A stretch of 15,828 nucleotides of DNA from Planctomycetaceae bacterium. GTDB taxonomy: Bacteria; Planctomycetota; Phycisphaerae; SM23-33. The notes below the pieces were generated by a model. It was not told the origin of the DNA and made no database searches. It saw nothing but the letters and a program-made list of their open reading frames with translations. The stretch lies in assembly GCA_021371965.1 (NCBI GenBank), contig JAJFVE010000097.1, positions 1-15,828 on the forward strand, in the 5' to 3' direction. The position numbers and the translations under genes are program-made. Positions 1-15,183 of this stretch are shown here, piece by piece; position 1 is the first letter of the stretch, and every line of letters starts with the position of its first letter.

Positions 1-1
1 C

Positions 2-1540
2 GTAGAAGTGGTCAAGAATTGCACCATCGGCAAGGACAAGACCATCGCGCAGTTGATGAAGGACGGCTTCAAGGCCGTCGTCGTCGCGACGGGCCTGTCC
101 ACCAGCCGCATGCTCCCGCTGCCCGGGGCGAACAACCCGCGAGTCTTGCCCGTGCTGGATTTCCTGGCCGCCGCCGCCTTTGACCGCCCCGTCGACATCG
201 GCAAGAACGTCGTCGTCATCGGCGGAGGCAATGTGGCGATGGACGCCGCGCGCACGGCAGTACGGTACGGGGCCACCCAAGTCCGCTGCGTGATGCTCGA
301 GACGCACGAGGAAATGCCCGCGTTTTCTTGGGAGGCCCGCGAGGCCGAAGAAGAGGGCGTGGCATTCGTGCATCGCCGCGGACCGGTCGAGGTGGTGACC
401 GGCGGCGGCAAGATCACCGGTCTCAAGACCCGCGGCGTCACGCGGGTGTTCGACGAGCAGAAGCGGTTCGCCCCGGCGTATGACGATGCCGACGTGCAGA
501 CCCTTGAGTGCGACACGATCGTCTTTGCCATCGGCCAGGCGCCGGACTGGGGCTTTGCCCAAGGCAGCGGGCTCGATGTGGTCGACGGGCGGCGGCTGAC
601 GTTCAACCCCGCCACTCAGCAGACCAACGTCGAGGGCGTCTTCGCCTGCGGCGAGATCGTCACCAAGCCCGGCTCGGTAGTCGAAGCCTGCGCCTCGGGC
701 CAGCGCGCCGCCAAGGCCGTGGACATGTTCCTGTCCGGACGGCCGATCTCCATCGACGATGCTATCCCGCCGGCGATCGACAAGATCGACGCCGAGACGG
801 CGGCGCTGGTGAAGAAGGTCGCCCGCAACCCCGTGCCGACCGAAGAGCCCGATGTCCGCAACAGGGTCTGGACCGAGACCGATCATAATTATTCAGACGA
901 GGCGGCGCTGGCGGAAGCCCGCCGCTGCATGAGTTGCGGCGCCGGCGCGGAGGTGCTCGTCGACAAGTGCGTGGCGTGCCTGACGTGCCTGCGCGTCTGC
1001 CCGTTCGACATCCCGGTGGTGACGGACGTGGCCCGCATCAGCTCGGCCCTGTGCCAGGCCTGCGGCATGTGCATCGCCGAGTGCCCGGGCAACGCCATCA
1101 TCGCCCGCGGCTGGGATGTTAAGGCCCTGGTCGAACGCACAAAACTCGAATTGGCCGCCATCAAGGGCCCGCGGAAGATCGTCGCCTATGTCTGCGGGCA
1201 TCACAGCCCGGCAGCCGCCTGGGCTGGCACGCTCGAGGATGCGATCGCCGGCGTGGCGGAGATTTATCTGCCCAGCATGAGCCGTCTGTCAGCCGCCGAG
1301 ATGCTCCATGCCATCGAGAACGGCGCCGACGGCGTGATCGTTGTCTCATGCACCAGCGGGGCCGACCGCTACCCCGGCGCGACCGAGCGAGTTCACAAGC
1401 GCGCCGCCCAGGTGCAGCAGTTGCTCAAAGATATCGGAATGTCGACCGACAAAGTGCAGGTCGTCGACGCCGCCGACCAGGGCCGCGCCGCCATGCGAGA
1501 AGCCATGGCCGCCGCTGCGGACAAGATACAGCAGTTGTGA
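2..1540 (+). CDS. NAD(P)-linked flavoprotein with two [4Fe-4S] motifs and a degenerate MvhD-like tail (5' partial)
   Basis: The frame is open to the left edge, so the N-terminus and first FAD-binding fold lie outside the window; the GTG at 8 is probably internal. Counting from that codon, a GltD-type NAD(P)-binding fold is visible (VVVIGGGNVAMDAA, residues 68-81), then the family motif EEMPAFSWEAREAEEEGV and a FAD-contacting GVFACGEI segment (210-217). C307/C310 follow, then two ferredoxin clusters (C321, C324, C327, C331 and C349, C352, C355, C359). Residues 390-500 resemble the hydrogenase iron-sulfur (MvhD/FrhD) domain, but only C396 and C448 remain of its cysteines, so that cluster is probably lost. 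The family passes electrons between NAD(P)H, flavin and Fe-S carriers. Being upstream of metV-metF, it is inferred to be the electron-input subunit of a MetFV complex. The stop codon lies inside the heptamer repeat at 1534. Exact partner and nucleotide preference are unknown. Confidence 0.85.
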   Translation, partial: VEVVKNCTIGKDKTIAQLMKDGFKAVVVATGLSTSRMLPLPGANNPRVLPVLDFLAAAAFDRPVDIGKNVVVIGGGNVAMDAARTAVRYGATQVRCVMLETHEEMPAFSWEAREAEEEGVAFVHRRGPVEVVTGGGKITGLKTRGVTRVFDEQKRFAPAYDDADVQTLECDTIVFAIGQAPDWGFAQGSGLDVVDGRRLTFNPATQQTNVEGVFACGEIVTKPGSVVEACASGQRAAKAVDMFLSGRPISIDDAIPPAIDKIDAETAALVKKVARNPVPTEEPDVRNRVWTETDHNYSDEAALAEARRCMSCGAGAEVLVDKCVACLTCLRVCPFDIPVVTDVARISSALCQACGMCIAECPGNAIIARGWDVKALVERTKLELAAIKGPRKIVAYVCGHHSPAAAWAGTLEDAIAGVAEIYLPSMSRLSAAEMLHAIENGADGVIVVSCTSGADRYPGATERVHKRAAQVQQLLKDIGMSTDKVQVVDAADQGRAAMREAMAAAADKIQQL

Positions 1541-1638
1541 GTGGTGAGTTGTGTGTGGTGAGCAAGAACAGCAGGTTGTGATTGCTGAGTTATGCGTGGC
1601 GAGCAAAAACTCGCCACTCACCACTCACAACTCACAAC
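1534..1638. repeat. Foldback array of degenerate 7-bp units
   Basis: Three blocks of four 7-bp units are visible. Block 1 (1534-1561) reads GTTGTGA, GTGGTGA, GTTGTGT, GTGGTGA. Block 2 (1575-1602) reads GTTGTGA, TTGCTGA, GTTATGC, GTGGCGA. Block 3 (1611-1638) is in inverse orientation; its complement reads GTTGTGA, GTTGTGA, GTGGTGA, GTGGCGA. Blocks 2 and 3 can pair across an 8-base loop (1603-1610), with perfect end units and imperfect middle units. Blocks 1 and 2 are each followed by GCAARAAC, as if block 1 were a copy that lost its inverted arm. The element fills the gap between the flavoprotein gene and metV, and its first unit supplies the TGA stop of the former. Heptanucleotide STRR repeats are known from filamentous cyanobacteria; a relation to them is not shown. 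Confidence 0.85.
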
Positions 1639-1654
1639 TTTTCAGGAGCCAGAA

Positions 1655-2338
1655 ATGATCGTTGCTGAACGCAAACCGATGGACGAGATTCTCCAGATGC
1701 TCCTTCCGTACAAGAAGGTGCTCGTGCTGGGCTGCGGCGGGTGCGTCGCGGTCTGCCTCACCGGCGGCGAACGCCAGGCCGAAGTGCTGGCCACGCAGCT
1801 TCGCATGGCCGCCAAGGCCGCAGGCAAAGAGATGACCGTCGAGTTCGACTGCATCACCCGCCAGTGCGAGAAGGAATTCTTCGCCAACCTCAAAAAGCCC
1901 CTGGGCGACTACGATGCGGTGCTGTCGATCGCGTGCGGGGCGGGCATCCAGTACGCCGGCGAGCAGGCCCCGGCCACGCCCGTGCTGCCGGGCATGAACA
2001 CCACGTTCCTGGCCAGCAACGTCGGCAAAGGCATCTGGGAAGAATACTGCCGCGGGTGCGGCGACTGCATGCTCGGCTGGACCGGCGGCATCTGCCCCAT
2101 CGCCAAATGCTCCAAGAGCCTCGTCAACGGCACCTGCGGCGGGACCAACAAGGGCAAGTGCGAAGTGAAAGCCGACATGGACTGCGGCTGGCTGCTGATC
2201 TACAAGCGCCTCAATGAGCTGGGCAAACTGGGCGAGTACCGCACCCTGCGGGCAGCCCCGGATTATCGAAAAGACCGCGGCAACGGCGTGCGCCGGATGG
2301 TGCTGGCCGAGATGACCGACGACCAGGAGAGCAAGTAA
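1655..2338 (+). CDS. metV: MetV, Fe-S/cysteine-rich subunit of methylenetetrahydrofolate reductase
   Basis: This is the MTHFR C-terminal-domain family protein (MetV) that partners MetF in acetogens and other anaerobes, where it carries Fe-S clusters and links MetF to its electron donor. The 227-residue protein has an N-terminal LGCGGCVAVCLTGGE motif (residues 25-39; C27, C30, C34), then C66, C71, C94, and the diagnostic C-terminal region WEEYCRGCGDCMLGWTGG followed by C147, C152, C161, C169 and DCGW (C177). There are fourteen cysteines in all. The start at 1655 is chosen because AGGAG sits at 1644-1648, six bases upstream, and the family motif follows closely. An in-frame ATG at 1592 would translate the repeat and is rejected. 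The stop TAA overlaps the metF start by one base (TAATG), indicating translational coupling. Confidence 0.93.
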   Translation: MIVAERKPMDEILQMLLPYKKVLVLGCGGCVAVCLTGGERQAEVLATQLRMAAKAAGKEMTVEFDCITRQCEKEFFANLKKPLGDYDAVLSIACGAGIQYAGEQAPATPVLPGMNTTFLASNVGKGIWEEYCRGCGDCMLGWTGGICPIAKCSKSLVNGTCGGTNKGKCEVKADMDCGWLLIYKRLNELGKLGEYRTLRAAPDYRKDRGNGVRRMVLAEMTDDQESK

Positions 2339-3252
2339 TGAGCGCACCCGTGAGTAAGTTCCAGGCCGACCTGCTGGCAGGCAAGTTCGTTTTCACCGGC
2401 GAGATCGGCCCGCCCAAGGGCGTCAACATCGAGCCGGTCATCCATGAGGCCGTCGAGTATCTCCACAGCGGCATCGTGTCGGCGGTGAACGTCACAGACA
2501 ACCAGACAGCCGTCATGCGCGCCAGCTCAGTGGCCGGCGCCAAGCTGCTGCTTGAAAAAGGCATCGAGCCGGTGCTGCAGATGGTCACGCGCGACCGCAA
2601 CCGCATCTCGCTCCTGTCGGACGTGCTGGGCGCCTACACCCTGGGCGTGCGGAACGTGTTGGTCCTCACCGGCGACCACGTCACCATGGGCGACCACCCG
2701 CAGTCCAAGCCCGTCTATGACCTCGACTCGGTCGGCATGCTGATGGCCATGAGCAAGCTCGAGGCCGGCACCGACCTGGGCAAGGACATGAAGGGCAACG
2801 ACAACAAGCTCGACGGCGTGCCGACGTTCTTCAAGGGCTGCTGCGTCACGCCCTGCGCCGACGAGGTCGAGCCGCAGATCATCAAGCTCGAGAAGAAAGT
2901 CGAAGCCGGCGCGCAGTTCGTCCAGACGCAGGCGGTGTACGAGCCGGCGGCCTTCGAGAAGTTCATGAAGAAGATCCAGCACATCAAGGTTCCCGTGCTG
3001 GTGGGCATCGTGATGCTCAAGAACGCGGGCATGGGCAAGTACATGAACAAGTCCGTCCCGGGCGTGGTGGTGCCGGACTGGATCATCCAGAAGCTCACCG
3101 ACTGCGCCAAGGAAGACCGCGAGAAGGTCTCGATCGAAATCTGCGCCCAGCTCGTGCGCGAGATGAAGGGCATGTGCCAGGGCACGCACTTCATGACGCT
3201 GGGATGGGACCACTGCGTCCCGGCGATCATCCAGCAGGCGGGACTGGCGTAG
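2338..3252 (+). CDS. metF: Methylenetetrahydrofolate reductase, flavoprotein subunit MetF
   Basis: It reduces 5,10-methylene-H4folate to 5-methyl-H4folate with FAD, feeding methionine synthesis or the methyl branch of the Wood-Ljungdahl pathway. The 304 residues span the usual TIM-barrel length. Visible family motifs are FTGEIGPPKG near the N-terminus (E22 in the position of the conserved catalytic Glu), VNVTDN (51-55), the stretch LGVRNVLVLTGDH ending in MGDHP (about 102-121), KPVYDLDSV and FVQTQAVY. AGGAGA at 2325-2330 is the ribosome binding site and the ATG overlaps the metV stop, so the two subunits are probably made in equal amounts. The MetV partner marks this as the MetFV type rather than the NADH-only E. 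coli type. It converges on asd with 5 bases between stops and no terminator visible in the gap. Confidence 0.95.
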   Translation: MSAPVSKFQADLLAGKFVFTGEIGPPKGVNIEPVIHEAVEYLHSGIVSAVNVTDNQTAVMRASSVAGAKLLLEKGIEPVLQMVTRDRNRISLLSDVLGAYTLGVRNVLVLTGDHVTMGDHPQSKPVYDLDSVGMLMAMSKLEAGTDLGKDMKGNDNKLDGVPTFFKGCCVTPCADEVEPQIIKLEKKVEAGAQFVQTQAVYEPAAFEKFMKKIQHIKVPVLVGIVMLKNAGMGKYMNKSVPGVVVPDWIIQKLTDCAKEDREKVSIEICAQLVREMKGMCQGTHFMTLGWDHCVPAIIQQAGLA

Positions 3253-3257
3253 GGTTT

Positions 3258-4271
<1,014 letters not shown>

Positions 4272-4349: not shown

Positions 4350-4371
4350 TATCCCGCGCGGCAAGAAAGTG

Positions 4372-4436
4372 ATGCCTCCGTTACGGGTCGTGTCGTCCCT
4401 TGGGGACGACACGCGTATCCCCCGTAACTGAGGCAT
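4372..4436. repeat. 65-base palindromic element (long hairpin)
   Basis: Three stacked stems are present: ATGCCTC (4372-4378) with GAGGCAT (4430-4436), GTTACGGG (4380-4387) with CCCGTAAC (4421-4428), and CGTGTCGTCCC (4389-4399) with GGGACGACACG (4403-4413). The loop is TTG, and the unpaired bases are at 4379/4429, 4388 and 4414-4420. The ends are perfectly inverted, as in a small non-autonomous or REP-like palindrome. It has no T-tract on either strand, so it is not a standard terminator. It lies in the divergent gap 4272-4626 between asd and the secreted-protein gene. The rest of that gap (4437-4613) shows no convincing promoter, operator or gene. Confidence 0.75.
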
Positions 4437-4626
4437 TACGCAAGAAAAGACTCCCCCGATGCAATTTATCGCTTGACCGCCCGTTGAGCGAATATGACGA
4501 TGTTCGGCTTGCTTTCGAGCCGTCAAGACGATTTCCACGCACGAGCACCGGAGTCAGGACAGCGTTATGCACGCGGTGTCGCGGGCCCGCCTGCCCTGCT
4601 GCCGGTTTTACTGAAAGGGTAGCATC

Positions 4627-5007
4627 GTGAAGAAGACTGCGATTCTGTTGCTGACTGCGGCGATCCTGGTTGCCTTCTGCGCCACCGACGTCATGGCCAA
4701 ACCCAAAAAGGGCGGCAAGAAGAAAAAGGGCGGCAATGAAGCCGCCGTGGCTGAGGTCAAGACCCTGGCCGGCACCGTTACCGGCGTCGATGACAAGGGC
4801 GTTGTCACCGTCAAGGCCGACGACAAAGAAGTGAAAGTCGCCACCGATGACAAGACCGCCGTCACCGTCGACGGAAAGGAAGCCAAGGTTGCCGACATCA
4901 AGGCCGACATGACCGTCACCGTCACCCCCGCCGAAGGCACTGCCACGAAGATCGAAGCCGTCGCGGCCAAGGCCGAAGCAAAGCCCGCCGAGAAGGCCGC
5001 GGAGTAA
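4627..5007 (+). CDS. Small secreted Lys/Ala-rich protein, copy 1 of a tandem pair
   Basis: No named family is recognised. The 126-residue product has a Sec signal peptide (KK, then a hydrophobic stretch to residue 20 and an A-x-A-like end near VMA-K). A very basic KPKKGGKKKKGG segment follows, then a compact repetitive beta-rich domain of about 65 residues (AGTVTGVDDKGVVTVKADDKEV...) and an Ala/Lys/Glu-rich tail. The domain aligns end to end with that of the gene at 5134 (shared DKE, TDDKT/TDSKT, VDGKE/IDGKE, MTVTV/MPVTV, TATKI/TAVRI), so the two arose by duplication. The start is GTG, supported by AAAGGG at 4614-4619; no good ATG is available. A strong terminator follows at 5028. The domain looks like a small beta-barrel, but its role is unknown. 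Confidence 0.8.
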   Translation: MKKTAILLLTAAILVAFCATDVMAKPKKGGKKKKGGNEAAVAEVKTLAGTVTGVDDKGVVTVKADDKEVKVATDDKTAVTVDGKEAKVADIKADMTVTVTPAEGTATKIEAVAAKAEAKPAEKAAE

Positions 5008-5027
5008 GTTCAGGCTGATTAACAGTC

Positions 5028-5070
5028 AAAACCGCCGGCTGGGCATCCGCGCAGCTGGCGGTTTTCTTTT
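5028..5070 (+). terminator. Strong Rho-independent terminator
   Basis: AAAACCGCCGGCTG (5028-5041) pairs with CAGCTGGCGGTTTT (5052-5065) over 14 bp with one G-T pair, around a 10-base loop, and is followed by CTTTT. It ends the transcript of the secreted-protein gene at 4627 and separates it from the paralogue at 5134. Confidence 0.92.
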
Positions 5071-5133
5071 GCCAATTCCTCTAGCCCCTCTGCCGGCTAT
5101 GATTCTCTGGACACTCCAAGAGAGGGGAAACAC

Positions 5134-5454
5134 ATGAAGAACCACCTGCTTATCATGACAGCGGCCGCCATCGCCTTTTATGCCATCGCGGTCAATGCTC
5201 AAACCACCGCAGCGGCCGACACTACGGCTGACTATTCGGGCGTCATCATGAGAATCGATCCTGGCAACTCCGTCGTGATCAAGGTCAGCGATAAGGAAAT
5301 CAGCATTCCCACCGACAGCAAGACCGTCATTCTCATCGACGGGAAGGAAGGCCGCGCGATCAACCTGGCCAAGAATATGCCCGTAACGGTCAGGACCATC
5401 AACGGCACAGCCGTCCGCATCGTAGCCACCACCCCGCTGCGCCCCGTTGAATAA
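5134..5454 (+). CDS. Small secreted protein, copy 2 of a tandem pair
   Basis: The function is not recognised. The 106-residue product has a Sec signal peptide (hydrophobic residues about 5-20, cleavage likely after VNA). The mature domain (SGVIMRIDPGNSVVIKVSDKEISI onward) is homologous to that of the upstream gene. It lacks the Lys-rich linker and the Ala/Lys tail of copy 1, so the copies have diverged in charge: copy 1 is strongly charged, copy 2 is not. AGAGGGG at 5121-5127 supports the ATG. A terminator stands between the copies, so expression is probably independent. A 5-bp hairpin (5459-5472) without a T-tract lies in the short gap to the convergent znuB. Confidence 0.78.
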   Translation: MKNHLLIMTAAAIAFYAIAVNAQTTAAADTTADYSGVIMRIDPGNSVVIKVSDKEISIPTDSKTVILIDGKEGRAINLAKNMPVTVRTINGTAVRIVATTPLRPVE

Positions 5455-9540: not shown

Positions 9541-9575
9541 GATGTCATTCTACTGCTATGCCTGCGTAAAGGCGA

Positions 9576-9604
9576 TTGTCGGGCAGGCCAGGTGGAGGTA
9601 CAAT
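9576..9604 (+). promoter_or_regulatory. Candidate promoter of the two membrane-protein genes
   Basis: TTGTCG (9576-9581), 17 bases, TACAAT (9599-9604). Matches are 4/6 and 5/6 with ideal spacing. The predicted start near 9611 leaves a leader of about 15 bases beginning at the Shine-Dalgarno AGAGGAG (9612-9618). Confidence 0.5.
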
Positions 9605-9625
9605 TTCTGACAGAGGAGCAGAAGC

Positions 9626-9958
9626 ATGCAACCGCCTCCGCTTAATGGGGTCCCGCGCAGGAAGATTCCATTGTTTCCGTTCATCTGGAGCGGCGCAGTT
9701 TTGGCGGTTTATCTCGTACACTTCCTCTATTGTCTTTCTTCCGGGCAGGATGTGGAACTTCGGCTTTTCTATTGCGCTTTGACAGCCTCGATCCCCTTCG
9801 GGACGGCTATCGGCTGCGGAATCCTGGTCTGGTGGCTTGCACGACAGCCCATCAGCGGCCTCCGGAAAGCATGTTTCATGGTGTTGTCTATTGCCGTGGC
9901 CATTCCGATCATCCTGACCAGCGGATTCGTCTGGCTCTTGACGCACATGGCGCCATGA
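9626..9958 (+). CDS. Hypothetical small membrane protein
   Basis: No family recognised. The 110-residue product has a short Pro-rich cytoplasmic-like head (QPPPLNGVPRRK) and three predicted membrane helices: about residues 17-38 (PFIWSGAVLAVYLVHFLYCL), 48-71 and 83-107. AGAGGAG at 9612-9618 is seven bases before the ATG. The next gene starts 15 bases after its stop, so the two are probably co-transcribed. The codon third positions are less GC-biased than in the flanking sulfatases, suggesting a later arrival or relaxed selection. The function cannot be told from the sequence. Confidence 0.65.
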   Translation: MQPPPLNGVPRRKIPLFPFIWSGAVLAVYLVHFLYCLSSGQDVELRLFYCALTASIPFGTAIGCGILVWWLARQPISGLRKACFMVLSIAVAIPIILTSGFVWLLTHMAP

Positions 9959-9973
9959 GCCACTGGAGAGGGC

Positions 9974-10597
9974 ATGAAGCGATCAGACAAACTGCTGGTG
10001 ACGGCGACGCTCGCAGCGGTTGTTTTGGTTATCGCCTTCGTGTGGCTGCTGGCGGTCCCTCGCTACGAGACTTCCGAGAAGCTCCTGTCAAGCCGCGCGC
10101 GGCTGGTTGAAAGATGGTACATCAGGACCTTTCCGCCTTTCGTCTGGACTGGCCAGCGCATTCTCGACGAGCAAACCCTCTGGTTCGATGGCGAGGTGGC
10201 CTGGTCCTCCAAGGCCGAGAATCGGCTCAGCGAGGGGATCCATGTTTCACCGGATAATCGCTGGGCCGTCATCGAGGATTGGATGCACGACAGACCGCTG
10301 ATCATCTTGAACCTTTCCGGTCCTCCATCGGCCAAGGGACAGCGCGTGATGGTGAACGATCCACAACCGAACGAGGTCATGCATGATTATGTCTATTCGC
10401 TCGGTTTCGTCAGGTGGAATGACGATTCAAAATCATTTCTCGCCGCCGCTACGGGCACAGATTGGAATGCACAGAACGACATGGTGGCTTGGCGCGAACT
10501 GTGGAAGGTATCCCCCGAGGATGGCCGGGCGGAACGTGTGAAGCGATTGGAGCGGCCATGGCAGCAGAATCGCGACAGCATTCCATGGCCTGAATGA
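9974..10597 (+). CDS. Hypothetical membrane-anchored protein with a propeller-like external domain
   Basis: No family recognised. The 207-residue product starts with a positively charged head and one membrane helix (about residues 7-28). An extracytoplasmic region follows with beta-propeller-like phrases such as GIHVSPDNRWAVIEDW and LGFVRWNDDSKSFLAA, which resemble blades of WD40/TolB-like proteins. It is too short for a full propeller, so only a few blades are present. GGAGAGGG (9965-9972) precedes the ATG. It probably forms an operon with the three-helix protein at 9626. DNA composition is again lower in GC than around it. Confidence 0.65.
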   Translation: MKRSDKLLVTATLAAVVLVIAFVWLLAVPRYETSEKLLSSRARLVERWYIRTFPPFVWTGQRILDEQTLWFDGEVAWSSKAENRLSEGIHVSPDNRWAVIEDWMHDRPLIILNLSGPPSAKGQRVMVNDPQPNEVMHDYVYSLGFVRWNDDSKSFLAAATGTDWNAQNDMVAWRELWKVSPEDGRAERVKRLERPWQQNRDSIPWPE

Positions 10598-10655
10598 CGC
10601 GCTCCGCTGCACATGATCCTTCGGCCTGCCCGCGAGGCGTTGGGTCTGCGCATGG

Positions 10656-10679
10656 AAACGGGCGGCCGGAGCCGCCCGT
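10656..10679 (-). terminator. Terminator of the PEP-CTERM gene
   Basis: A perfect 9-bp stem, ACGGGCGGC (10658-10666) with GCCGCCCGT (10671-10679), has the four-base loop CGGA. Read on the minus strand it is followed by a short T run (TTTCC), so it fits the end of the gene at 10706-11401. There is no T-tract on the plus side, although it may also slow transcription from the gene at 9974. Confidence 0.6.
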
Positions 10680-13075: not shown

Positions 13076-13966
13076 TCAAAGCGATCCTTCCTTGGCCAGC
13101 GTCCAGTTGAACCCGTCGGCAGAGTACAGCAGACCGGCGCTGGTTTTGTCTTTCTCGTCGACGCCCATCAGGATCATCCAGTAGGCGTCGCCTTCCTGCC
13201 AGACGTACGGGGCGCCTTGCGAGCGCGCCATCCACTTCTGCGGCGGCAGCTTGATCGCCGAGCGGCGCTGCCAGGTGATCAGGTCCGGAGAGGTCGAAAC
13301 GGCCAGGTGCTGCGAGGGGCCCAGGTCTTCGCTGGAGATCATCACCCACTGGCCGCCTGCGCGAAACACTGTCACATTCTCGATGCCGCCGTCTTCGATG
13401 CGATCATAGCCCATCAGCGGCTTATCGACCGTGAGGATCTCCCACGTCTTCAGCGCGGGGTCGCGCGTCACGGCGTGGCCGAGCAGATTGGCGTGGCCTT
13501 TGCGCGTCTTGCGGGCGCACGAGCCGACGAAGAAGCAGTGCAGCGTGTCGCCGTCGATCACCTGCGTCGGATCGATCGCCCGTTCGAACTCGTTCCAGGG
13601 CAGCTTGAGCACCTCTTCGAGATACGGCCGCGGGCGCGTCCAGTTCACCGCGTCGGACGACTCGCTGTAGCACAGCTTCGCGTAGCCGGGATACTTCTGG
13701 AACACCAGCACGTAGCGCCCGTGCCAGAACACCGCGTCGCCCGGCGAGGCGTAGCCCTTGGGCGTGATGTCGCGGTCATCGCTGAAGGTGACGAAGTCTT
13801 CCGTATAGGCCGAGGCGATGGCCCAATTTTCGCTGGGGCCCCAGTCCAAGTTCGAGTGGCGGCTATAAAACAGCACGTAACCGTTGCCCAGCGGCAGGAC
13901 GGCCGGGTCACGAACGTTGTCGGCCCGGCGGTAGACGGGGTTGGTGATCTGGTGGAGACTTAGCAT
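13076..13966 (-). CDS. GH43/GH32-like five-bladed beta-propeller, putative glycosidase
   Basis: The 296-residue protein has repeated blade phrases of the GH43/GH32 clan: VRDPAVLPLGNGYVLFYS, PGDAVFWHGRYVLVFQ, LCYSESSDAVNWT, AVSTSPDLITW and YSADGFNWT. Acidic residues sit where the clan keeps its triad: D20 (RDP), D132 (AIDPTQV) and E196 (GIENVT). It may hydrolyse an arabinoside, xyloside or similar sugar, but the exact family is uncertain. There is no signal peptide, so it probably acts inside the cell. The start at 13966 (MLSLHQITNP) is preferred; an upstream ATG at 14020 would translate the heptamer repeat. The Shine-Dalgarno-like AGGAT before the chosen start comes from that repeat. The sulfatase gene starts 50 bases downstream. 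Confidence 0.8.
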   Translation of the reverse strand: MLSLHQITNPVYRRADNVRDPAVLPLGNGYVLFYSRHSNLDWGPSENWAIASAYTEDFVTFSDDRDITPKGYASPGDAVFWHGRYVLVFQKYPGYAKLCYSESSDAVNWTRPRPYLEEVLKLPWNEFERAIDPTQVIDGDTLHCFFVGSCARKTRKGHANLLGHAVTRDPALKTWEILTVDKPLMGYDRIEDGGIENVTVFRAGGQWVMISSEDLGPSQHLAVSTSPDLITWQRRSAIKLPPQKWMARSQGAPYVWQEGDAYWMILMGVDEKDKTSAGLLYSADGFNWTLAKEGSL

Positions 13967-13973
13967 AAAACAG

Positions 13974-14056
13974 ATCCTAGGTCCTAGATCCTCGATCCTA
14001 GAGGGAAAGAACCCTCCCATATCCTGCCCTAGGATCTAGGACCTAGGATCGAGGAT
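13974..14056. repeat. Foldback array of 7-bp units, permuted arms
   Basis: The left arm (13974-14001) has four units: ATCCTAG, GTCCTAG, ATCCTCG, ATCCTAG. The right arm (14029-14056) is inverted; its complement reads ATCCTCG, ATCCTAG, GTCCTAG, ATCCTAG. The arms therefore contain the same four units in circularly permuted order. Between them a small hairpin, GAGGG (14001-14005) with CCCTC (14012-14016), is visible. The element fills almost all of the 98 bases between the URO-D-like gene and the propeller gene. It has the same architecture as the element at 1534-1638 but unrelated unit sequence. Confidence 0.9.
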
Positions 14057-14064
14057 CTGTTGTT

Positions 14065-15183
14065 CTACTTCCCAATCAGCTTCATCTTCTTTTCGCGGTA
14101 GTAGCAATAGTTCGCATAGGAGATATCCGGCGGCACGAGGTGGTCCAGGTGCGGGATGAAGCCGCCCTGGTCCAACAGCGGGCGGATGCGCTCGAGCTCG
14201 GCGTCGATGGCGGCCTTGCCTTGCGCCAGCGGCACCTTGGCGATGCCGCCTCGCATGCGCAGGTCCAGGCCCCACTCCTTGCGCCAGGCCGCCGCGTCCA
14301 CGCCGGCGGCGACCTCCATCGGGAACATGATGTTGACGCCCTCTTCCAGCCAGTTGCCGACGATGTCGTGCGGGTTGCCGTCGCAGTCGACGATGCCCAG
14401 CACGCAGCCGCGCTTCTTGGCGGCCTGCATGACCGCATGATACGCCGGCTGGAGGAACTCGCGGAACATCCTGGGACTCACGAACGGGCCATTGCGGCTG
14501 GCCATGTCTTCCCACCACGAGACCTGGTCGATCGGAATGTCGGCGGGTGCGGCCTCGACGCTATCGACGATCAACTCGGTGAAGCTTTCCATCATGTCGT
14601 GGATCATCTCGGGATAGTCGTAGAATGCGGTGGAGAGATTCTCAAAACCCATCCAGTTGCGCAGTTGCCCGTAAGGCCCGCACAGGTGTAGCGTGACCAT
14701 CGCCCCGCGGGCGATCGCCTCGCGCACGTGGGCGAAGTCGGAGTCTTTGCCCTTGCGCACCGGGTCGTCGCGGCGGTAGCGCTTCCTCATTTCCTGCCAG
14801 TCGGCCGGCGTCTTGATCGGAAAGTCGATGAAGTGCGGAATGGAGCTTTCGTCCTGGGCGGCTTCGAACCGCTCGGCGACCACGCCGTCGCCGCCGCGCT
14901 CGATGACGGAATGCTCCTTGCGCTCGATAACCTCGTGCTCGAACGACGGATGCATGAAGCACGCCGCCCCGATGCCCGTGCCCTCCCCCTCCAGGCCGAA
15001 GAACTTATCGAACTTGCCGCTGAACATGGAATTGATCTCCTGGGGCGTCATGTCGATCTGGGCGCCCTCGGAAATCCAGCGGCGAATCGTCTGCGGCCAG
15101 TACCCGAACTCCAGGTCCGGCACGCGATCGACGTTCTGGTACGTGTAAACGCGATAGTAACGGTCGGTCACTTCGGGACGCAT
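14065..15183 (-). CDS. Uroporphyrinogen decarboxylase-like (URO-D superfamily) protein
   Basis: The 372-residue protein has the TIM-barrel URO-D fold as seen in the catabolic paralogues common in planctomycetes and other polysaccharide degraders, rather than HemE. Recognisable parts are TLHLCGPYGQLRNWMGFENLSTAFYD (about 203-228), IDQVSWWEDMASRNGPFVSPRMFREFLQP, VDCDGNPHDIV and the C-terminal signature GGFIPHLDHLVPPD followed by SYANYCYYREK. Relatives include the MtaA/CmuA methyltransferases, so a methyl- or corrinoid-linked reaction is possible; heme synthesis is unlikely. It is first in an operon with a GH43-like protein and a sulfatase. Start at 15183; Shine-Dalgarno is weak (GAAAGG). Confidence 0.88.
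   Translation of the reverse strand: MRPEVTDRYYRVYTYQNVDRVPDLEFGYWPQTIRRWISEGAQIDMTPQEINSMFSGKFDKFFGLEGEGTGIGAACFMHPSFEHEVIERKEHSVIERGGDGVVAERFEAAQDESSIPHFIDFPIKTPADWQEMRKRYRRDDPVRKGKDSDFAHVREAIARGAMVTLHLCGPYGQLRNWMGFENLSTAFYDYPEMIHDMMESFTELIVDSVEAAPADIPIDQVSWWEDMASRNGPFVSPRMFREFLQPAYHAVMQAAKKRGCVLGIVDCDGNPHDIVGNWLEEGVNIMFPMEVAAGVDAAAWRKEWGLDLRMRGGIAKVPLAQGKAAIDAELERIRPLLDQGGFIPHLDHLVPPDISYANYCYYREKKMKLIGK

Follow-up and report, generated by a model that had tools for sequence, protein, structure and literature searches.

In many bacterial genomes the long simple repeats met most often are heptamers, which have been put down to slippage or to G-quadruplexes; those of Calothrix go by the name STRR. 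For Xanthomonas, the accessible parts of Rehm 2015 (PMC4692102) describe GGGAATC heptamers, of a GGGNATC type that also occurs in Nostoc, which stand four in a row in the majority of cases and form convergent pairs, 70 of them in one Xanthomonas genome and 75 in another, with few inverted pairs in Nostoc. According to the same parts, the arrays lie mostly between aligned genes, those downstream of a gene being mostly at most 50 bp from its stop codon or over it, and the four units are linked to G-quadruplexes; the Calothrix heptanucleotides are cited there as well. The TAACTGA repeats of Beggiatoaceae, cyanobacteria and Bacteroidetes, as far as the available text of MacGregor 2015 (PMC4679880) covers them, are direct, with one indirect repeat, stand mostly just upstream of start codons in Maribeggiatoa, and differ between two Cyanothece strains by indels that are mostly of 7-nt steps. 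REPINs, which go with the RAYT transposases, are given in the available portions of Bertels and Rainey 2011 (PMC3116915) and of PMC2817692 as inverted doublets with a GT(A/G)G head and a palindromic core, and the uptake-signal hairpins of Neisseria and Pasteurellaceae, in the available part of Kingsford 2007 (PMC1852404), as predicted terminators built from signals of 9-11 nt that are generally present in at least 1000 copies. No literature report of heptamer fold-backs in Planctomycetes was found in a partial search, outside which most subscription journals lay.

The locus described here lies in a 15,828-nt contig of a Planctomycetaceae bacterium, the whole of which is called the window below. 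Two arms of four heptamers each, all of the type RTCCTMG, face each other there across a loop of 27 nt (14002..14028). Both from the letters and from a repeat search, the left arm (13974..14001, plus strand) is ATCCTAG, GTCCTAG, ATCCTCG and ATCCTAG, and the right arm (14029..14056, minus strand) is the reverse complement of ATCCTCG, ATCCTAG, GTCCTAG and ATCCTAG. The conserved unit of this element reaches 7-8 nt past 13974 and 14056, into outer tails of AAAACAG on the left (13967..13973; on the minus strand CTGTTTT, a conserved family end followed directly by the ATG of the next gene) and CTGTTGTT on the right (14057..14064), which adjoins the stop codon TAG (14067-14065) of the preceding one. 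In register, the repeat search finds the arms 88% complementary over 33 nt (13969-14001 with 14029-14061, flanking AACAG/CTGTT included); in registers shifted by 7 and 14, all of 20 and all of 16 positions are paired. RNA folding gives -51.2 and -54.0 kcal/mol for the two strands (z -7.3 and -5.4), none of 200 shuffles being as good on either strand, and the four-heptamer fold-back is real. Rfam has no match in the window at gathering score, and a terminator scan found nothing at the element. A preliminary description of this DNA held that the arms contain the same four units in the orders A-G-C-A and C-A-G-A (A being ATCCTAG, G GTCCTAG and C ATCCTCG), which the letters confirm. It also called the arms circularly permuted, which they are not, C-A-G-A being no rotation of A-G-C-A.

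The element fills nearly all of the 98 nt between two co-directional genes on the minus strand. The upstream one encodes a URO-D (PF01208) family protein of 372 aa (14065..15183), 98% identical to its counterpart on contig C48 of genome G078, and the downstream one a GH32/GH43-like protein (13076..13966), for which GH43 scores below the Pfam cut-off and the predicted start is the ATG at 13966-13964. This next start codon lies 7 nt from the array, and the AGGA of the outermost heptamer (13978-13975, minus strand) stands 8 nt before it. G078 (5.2 Mb) is the closest genome found, and 1301 bases of the locus match it at 92% identity. Its orthologous element (L252) has a right arm identical to that of the window, a left arm that is one unit shorter with one substitution, and a loop that is heavily changed; at the level of the alignment, arm conservation with loop turnover is shown for the one orthologue compared. 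When the DNA of the locus was searched against 40 genomes, only G078 gave a match across both genes. The loci examined of the nearest URO-D relatives show no GH neighbour, and a URO-D protein query of the genome-contig collection returned no relative. The aspartate-semialdehyde dehydrogenase of the window reaches 82% identity with homologues in assemblies of Phycisphaerae and other Planctomycetota, which makes an origin in that group most likely; one that is 68% identical (L059) sits in a MAG bin labelled Bordetella parapertussis, a label that looks doubtful. Nothing in the G078 locus, syntenic elsewhere, corresponds to window positions 4350-5308 and 9541-10656, which are replaced there by about 230 and 80 nt.

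The window holds a second element at 1533-1639, which the preliminary description had taken to be of the same kind as the first on another heptamer. This holds: it too has arms of about four heptamers, inverted, between co-directional genes. The left arm (1533..1562, plus strand; AGTTGTG, AGTGGTG, AGTTGTG and TGTGGTG) overlaps the stop codon of a plus-strand gene (8..1540) for a pyridine nucleotide-disulphide oxidoreductase with a C-terminal FlpD domain (PF02662), and the right arm (1610..1639, minus strand) is, by repeat search, the reverse complement of AGTTGTG, AGTTGTG, AGTGGTG, AGTGGCG and a final AG. The downstream gene (1655..2338, plus strand) encodes a protein with an MTHFR C-terminal domain (PF12225), which we take to be metV-like. 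The element has three arms: between the two lies a further one of about four degenerate heptamers (1575..1603, plus strand, repeat search), which repeats the left arm directly over 36 nt at an offset of 41 nt, and the right arm can pair with either. This FlpD-metV-MTHFR end of the window (1-3258) is not continued in the G078 stretch beside the shared genes, and the G078 relatives of FlpD and metV lie on a different contig, C34.

Inverted pairs of tandem arrays were sought with a scanner. In the window it reports two matches, both of period 7, whereas periods 4-6 and 8-12 gave no match. A set of 1.49 Mb, made up of 80 housekeeping-gene loci, 25 viral contigs fetched for the RTCCTMG heptamer and the window, contained 17 pairs of period 7 and a single pair for each of the periods 8, 9 and 12; periods 4, 5, 6, 10 and 11 were absent. 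The unselected part of it is the 80 of 105 loci that remain when the 25 chosen for carrying the focal heptamer are set aside, and there period 7 accounts for 10 of the 13 pairs. Stretches of five genomes (1.68 Mb) added 22 period-7 pairs on many seeds: eight in G011, 13 in G005 (two of them overlapping), one in G009, and none in G001 and G010. Other periods from 4 to 13 came to 14 pairs in the same stretches (one at 6, five at 8, five at 9 and three at 12), and period 14, a harmonic, to 10. A single genome can hold several heptamers, for instance AGTTGAT, AGTTGCC/AGTTGTT, GTAGTCC, GGTGATC and others in G011, or TTCAGCR, AGAGGTT, GAATATT and others in G005. Period 7 is the commonest period, not the sole one, and is unevenly spread. 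Three dinucleotide shuffles of 3.17 Mb, scanned at periods 6-9 only, contained no pair, so the period-7 pairs exceed the shuffled level. The proposal that one architecture is built on different seed heptamers is supported by these counts, both the 10 of 13 pairs in the 80 loci and the 22 pairs on many seeds. Three fold-backs of CCAGCCA, AGCCAGT and GTAGGCT types lie within 8 kb in one stretch (L255, G191:C6; 693-853, 3033-3193 and 8332-8444). The 25 viral-collection stretches (L081-L105) carry exact RTCCTMG triple units, four of the contigs with period-7 fold-backs as well; since arrays and fold-backs are found there, either heptamer arrays or host DNA reach viral bins.

The focal element belongs to a dispersed family. 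A three-unit pattern with up to 2 mismatches gives 96 matches at 28 sites in G078, 25 of these sites having a match at 0-1 mismatch; the backward pattern gives 47, a control that is not independent, as in our own reading the backward heptamer resembles a shifted forward copy. The focal pattern is absent from 34 of 39 other relatives, and G199 has eight matches of a related variant. We read 24 of the 28 G078 sites (leaving out those on C33 and C55 and two on C46), as 20 stretches (L291-L310) with 22 sites, together with the window, the L252 orthologue and L268. Among 50 arms from the window and G078, 39 have four units, two have five, three have three, five have two and one has eight, two-unit arms being counted in L291-L310 and not in the window, L252 or L268. 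Twenty-one of the 24 sites are paired, all facing with the same polarity, one pair with about 485 nt between its arms; three are single-armed. Within the unit, positions 2, 3, 4 and 7 are nearly invariant and positions 1, 5 and 6 variable. The outer ends (n=47) are conserved over eight positions (C 47, T 43, G/T 42, T 30, T 41, T 32, T 30 and T 26), and from about position 10 outwards the sequence is close to random. Between copies, loops resemble each other no more than shuffled ones do (13 loops, 78 pairs, mean score 6.1 vs 5.7). A similar picture emerges for the heptamer RGTKGAT in G011, with 243 pattern matches against 199 for a backward control that is likewise not independent. Among the matches listed there, which come from 20 stretches that are not a random sample, the 39 arms have four units in 25 cases, five in five, three in four, two in two, and six, seven and 13 in one each, and the pairs have the same facing polarity. 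Array size had been expected to vary freely if the description were wrong, and in two unrelated families arms of exactly four units make up 39 of 50 and 25 of 39. The architecture, its family in a close relative and the four-unit rule in two unrelated heptamer families are thus established. Two G078 elements at contig ends (L307 and L310, on C9 and C26) are followed by identical sequence, and a longer repeat may therefore break the assembly there. Another G078 fold-back of RTCCYMG type (L303, 627-766) has almost no loop and lies 13 nt before a tRNA-Trp gene.

Position relative to genes was determined for 39 elements, namely 18 of the window and G078 family, eight of G011, 12 of G005 and the second element of the window. 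The L252 orthologue, the first pair of L302, L304, L307, L309 and L310 had been left out beforehand, an overlapping L215 row was merged, and L295, which has no flanking gene, was skipped. Gene ends are the predictions of a simple codon model trained per genome. Of 34 elements with a flanking stop, 29 overlap it or are at most 12 nt away, compared to 15.5 expected from random placement in the same gap, and seven of 34 with a flanking start lie near that start, compared to 13.5. When only gaps with at least 60 nt to spare are considered (n=21), 12 elements are near a stop (1.8 expected) and none near a start (2.1 expected), and placement at the stop codon holds across many heptamers. We also considered whether the heptamers themselves carry a stop codon, which at period 7 would appear in all three frames; this is the case for 33 of 42 fold-backs, on either strand, compared to 28.4 by unit shuffling (p 0.056), and the idea was dropped. 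For 20 window and G078 family elements whose neighbours on both sides are predicted genes, the window and its orthologue counted separately, the neighbours are co-directional in 17 (baseline 89/146, mildly exceeded), convergent in one (22/146) and divergent in two (35/146); with one in 20 between convergent genes, the elements are unlike ordinary terminators.

The same gene junction can carry fold-backs of different heptamers in different genomes, in a small sample of three G011 or G078 junctions followed in relatives and the FlpD-metV junction. Between the large and small subunits of glutamate synthase (L210; PF01645, PF14691/PF07992) there is an AGTTGAT fold-back in G011, one of AGTTGCC in G064, one of GAATGAC in G100, and none in G028. 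The standard scanner detects that of G011 and misses the other two, and a relaxed setting recovers that of G064; in a separate score each of the three exceeds all 200 single-base shuffles. The G064 fold-back is the weakest, with period identity of 0.71 and 0.76 and arm identity of 0.75, and its heptamer has AGTTG in common with that of G011. The junction of FlpD (PF02662) with the metV-like gene carries an AGTKGTG fold-back in the window and an AGTTGAT one in G011 (L157, the only other locus with a metV-like gene among the loci examined), the proteins being 42% identical; in 15 relatives the gap there ranges from about 12 to more than 300 nt, as taken from match coordinates and not from sequence. 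Where G011 has its fold-back at L157:2131-2219, G017 has an overlapping stop and start and no element, between flanks 76% and 69% identical. For the L268 junction, none of eight genomes gave a match across both genes. Recurrence is not a feature of every gene, given that downstream of aspartate-semialdehyde dehydrogenase one of 79 loci has a period-7 fold-back (two have period 9 and one period 10), with one of period 7 upstream. It is conceivable, though doubtful, that what defines an element is not its letters but its period and its layout, from the stop codon through four heptamers and a loop to four more; the junction would then keep its fold-back while the heptamer is swapped, and some machinery with a seven-nucleotide step would read or write it.

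How such elements arise can be approached through their arms. The preliminary description saw in the permuted orders a sign of slippage or of template switching between arms, and a process in which polymerase slippage in place makes the arrays, and foldback copying or arm-to-arm template switching the second arm, would fit several facts: heptamers are the commonest period, the L252 orthologue shows that whole-unit change occurs, having one unit fewer in its left arm, and in the available text of PMC4679880 the TAACTGA sets of two cyanobacterial strains differ mostly by 7-nt indels. Mrazek 2007 also proposed slippage, as cited in the available parts of PMC4692102 and PMC4679880. However, free movement of units predicts that positions are interchangeable and that the two arms of an element are alike, and neither was found. 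G at base 1 of the unit occurs in 2, 10, 24 and 4 of the 39 four-unit arms at positions 1 to 4 (chi-square p = 1.2e-8), and base 6 likewise differs between unit positions (p = 0.004), p values that serve only as a guide because the arms are related and copies are not independent; the differing profiles make the arms look like in-register copies of one 28-nt motif. Where both arms have four units (13 elements), the two arms of an element match at 23.1 of 28 positions, a value that 0.99 of permutations reach or exceed, compared to 24.0 of 28 for arms of different elements, and covariation of the arms within an element is absent (n = 13). The slight deficit hints that perfect pairing is avoided, and with 13 elements we do not rely on it. 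None of the 13, the focal one included, has arms that are exact rotations of each other, and permutation is not common either, since only the focal element has the same unit set in both arms. Eight of 465 pairs among 31 family arms share a unit set anyway, and the focal permutation is thus most likely a coincidence of few tolerant positions. With unit number almost fixed at four, polarity constant in the pairs read and ends conserved across copies as well, slippage and copying are very unlikely as the source of these elements. A mobile origin fares somewhat better. A neutral, non-autonomous element of REPIN or MITE type, moved in trans and seen after stop codons only because insertions elsewhere are lost, would account for 28 dispersed sites in G078 with no match in 34 of 39 relatives, for the conserved ends, and for the G017 genes that overlap, without an element, where G011 has one between flanks of 76% and 69% identity. 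It could also draw on the Y1_Tnp (PF01797) matches in G078 (15, one of them 1.6 kb from an element on C41) and G011 (nine). Against it, random placement within the same gaps does not reproduce the stop preference (12 of 21 vs 1.8, and no starts among 21), loops are not common to copies, and GTRG or CYAC heads were found within 12 nt of one of 36 element ends. Nor is there target-site duplication above chance in 18 elements, the longest flanking direct repeat averaging 2.1 nt for an element's own flanks and 2.0 between elements. As a sign of linkage to a RAYT the Y1_Tnp matches do not discriminate, since each of the seven genomes searched has them, even G001 and G010 with no period-7 fold-back in their samples. 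Purely neutral mobility we therefore consider rather unlikely.

Two further readings concern what the elements do. A bidirectional intrinsic terminator, like the inverted uptake sequences of Neisseria and Pasteurellaceae, is suggested by stems of the RTCCTMG family that are A-rich before and U-rich after, and by elements that adjoin stop codons. The tail of this family has 5.0 T per 10 nt compared to 2.0 further out (13 hand-picked elements), but in 15 elements of other heptamers it is absent (1.87 vs 1.93), and for those a general terminator is not supported. Convergent gene pairs are moreover not enriched, a canonical-looking terminator stands just past the array in L218 (by eye), and at the focal locus 7 nt separate the array from the start codon that follows, so that a role of this kind is improbable. 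We give equally little weight to a site in DNA for a protein that binds four heptamers in a row, of the uptake-signal, nucleoid or segregation type. The four units, the constant polarity and the division of the unit into nearly invariant (2, 3, 4, 7) and variable (1, 5, 6) positions would all suit such a protein, yet several heptamer families per genome would need several proteins, and the position after the stop codon points to RNA.

The reading that we prefer, with about even confidence, is that of a dispersed family of imperfect hairpins with four heptamers per arm, directly after stop codons, which acts as a hairpin in mRNA and spreads in the manner of REPINs. A hairpin a few nucleotides after the stop codon is best read as an mRNA element; it would lie in the 3'-UTR or between cistrons and separate the fates of the upstream and downstream frames in decay, read-through or ribosome traffic. 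E. coli REP sequences near stop codons reportedly affect translation. On the upstream side, the hairpin could shield the first reading frame at its 3' end or keep the ribosome there; on the downstream side, it could set how much of the second gene product is made. In the RTCCTMG family the U-rich tail may give partial intrinsic termination and the element may supply the AGGA ribosome-binding site of the next gene, AGGA standing 8-9 nt before an ATG in the window and in L268; with both present, a single stem may link partial termination to the start of translation. Copying across the genome would be of the element as a unit, REPIN-like, by a putative mover, after which the units would drift, mostly by point changes at the three tolerant positions, and now and then a whole unit would be gained or lost. 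Selection for perfect pairing predicts covariation between the arms of one element, and its absence counts against this reading. So do the lack of a U-rich tail in elements of other heptamers, the negative terminator scan at the focal element, and the gene orientations, with two of 20 elements between divergent genes and the co-directional share only mildly raised.

Compared with the known systems, as far as the available parts of the cited reports describe them, the elements are nearest to the Xanthomonas heptamers. Both consist of tandem 7-nt units with four preferred (39 of 50 and 25 of 39 arms here, the latter among the matches listed), both form convergent pairs (21 of the 24 G078 sites read are paired, all facing, and G011 likewise), and both keep close to stop codons (29 of 34 within 12 nt here, 15.5 expected). 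They differ in that Xanthomonas has one G-rich heptamer type and several heptamers are found per genome here, with conserved outer tails and with junctions that carry different heptamers in different genomes. Runs of three G or C are lacking in 27 of the 39 RTCCYMG four-unit arms, with one run in 11 and two in one, and in all 25 RGTKGAT four-unit arms among the matches listed; since these arms lack four G-tracts, the G-quadruplex cannot be the general reason for four units. Arms nearly fixed at four units, constant polarity, placement after stop codons and the lack of G-tracts together argue that neither slippage nor G-quadruplexes are the general cause, and that a selected or actively spread hairpin underlies heptamer arrays. 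Comparative genomics and reporter assays can test this directly at junctions whose fold-backs differ in heptamer.

The remaining likenesses are more distant, again within what the available texts cover. The TAACTGA and Calothrix repeats are similar in that they, too, are heptamer arrays of few units, scattered between genes and patchily distributed, but TAACTGA repeats are direct and in Maribeggiatoa mostly precede starts, whereas those here are inverted pairs that follow stops. The uptake-signal terminators are likewise complementary pairs of a dispersed short repeat that form hairpins downstream of genes, with much shorter stems, signals of 9-11 nt and generally at least 1000 copies. REPINs, by analogy, would be the nearest mobile counterpart: inverted doublets of a short dispersed repeat that form hairpins outside genes, in many copies and possibly several families per genome, though they have a GT(A/G)G head and a palindromic core where the elements here have arrays of four by seven nucleotides, T-rich ends and no such head. 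The layout described for Xanthomonas in Rehm 2015 is the same as the one found here, and it is the closest known system.
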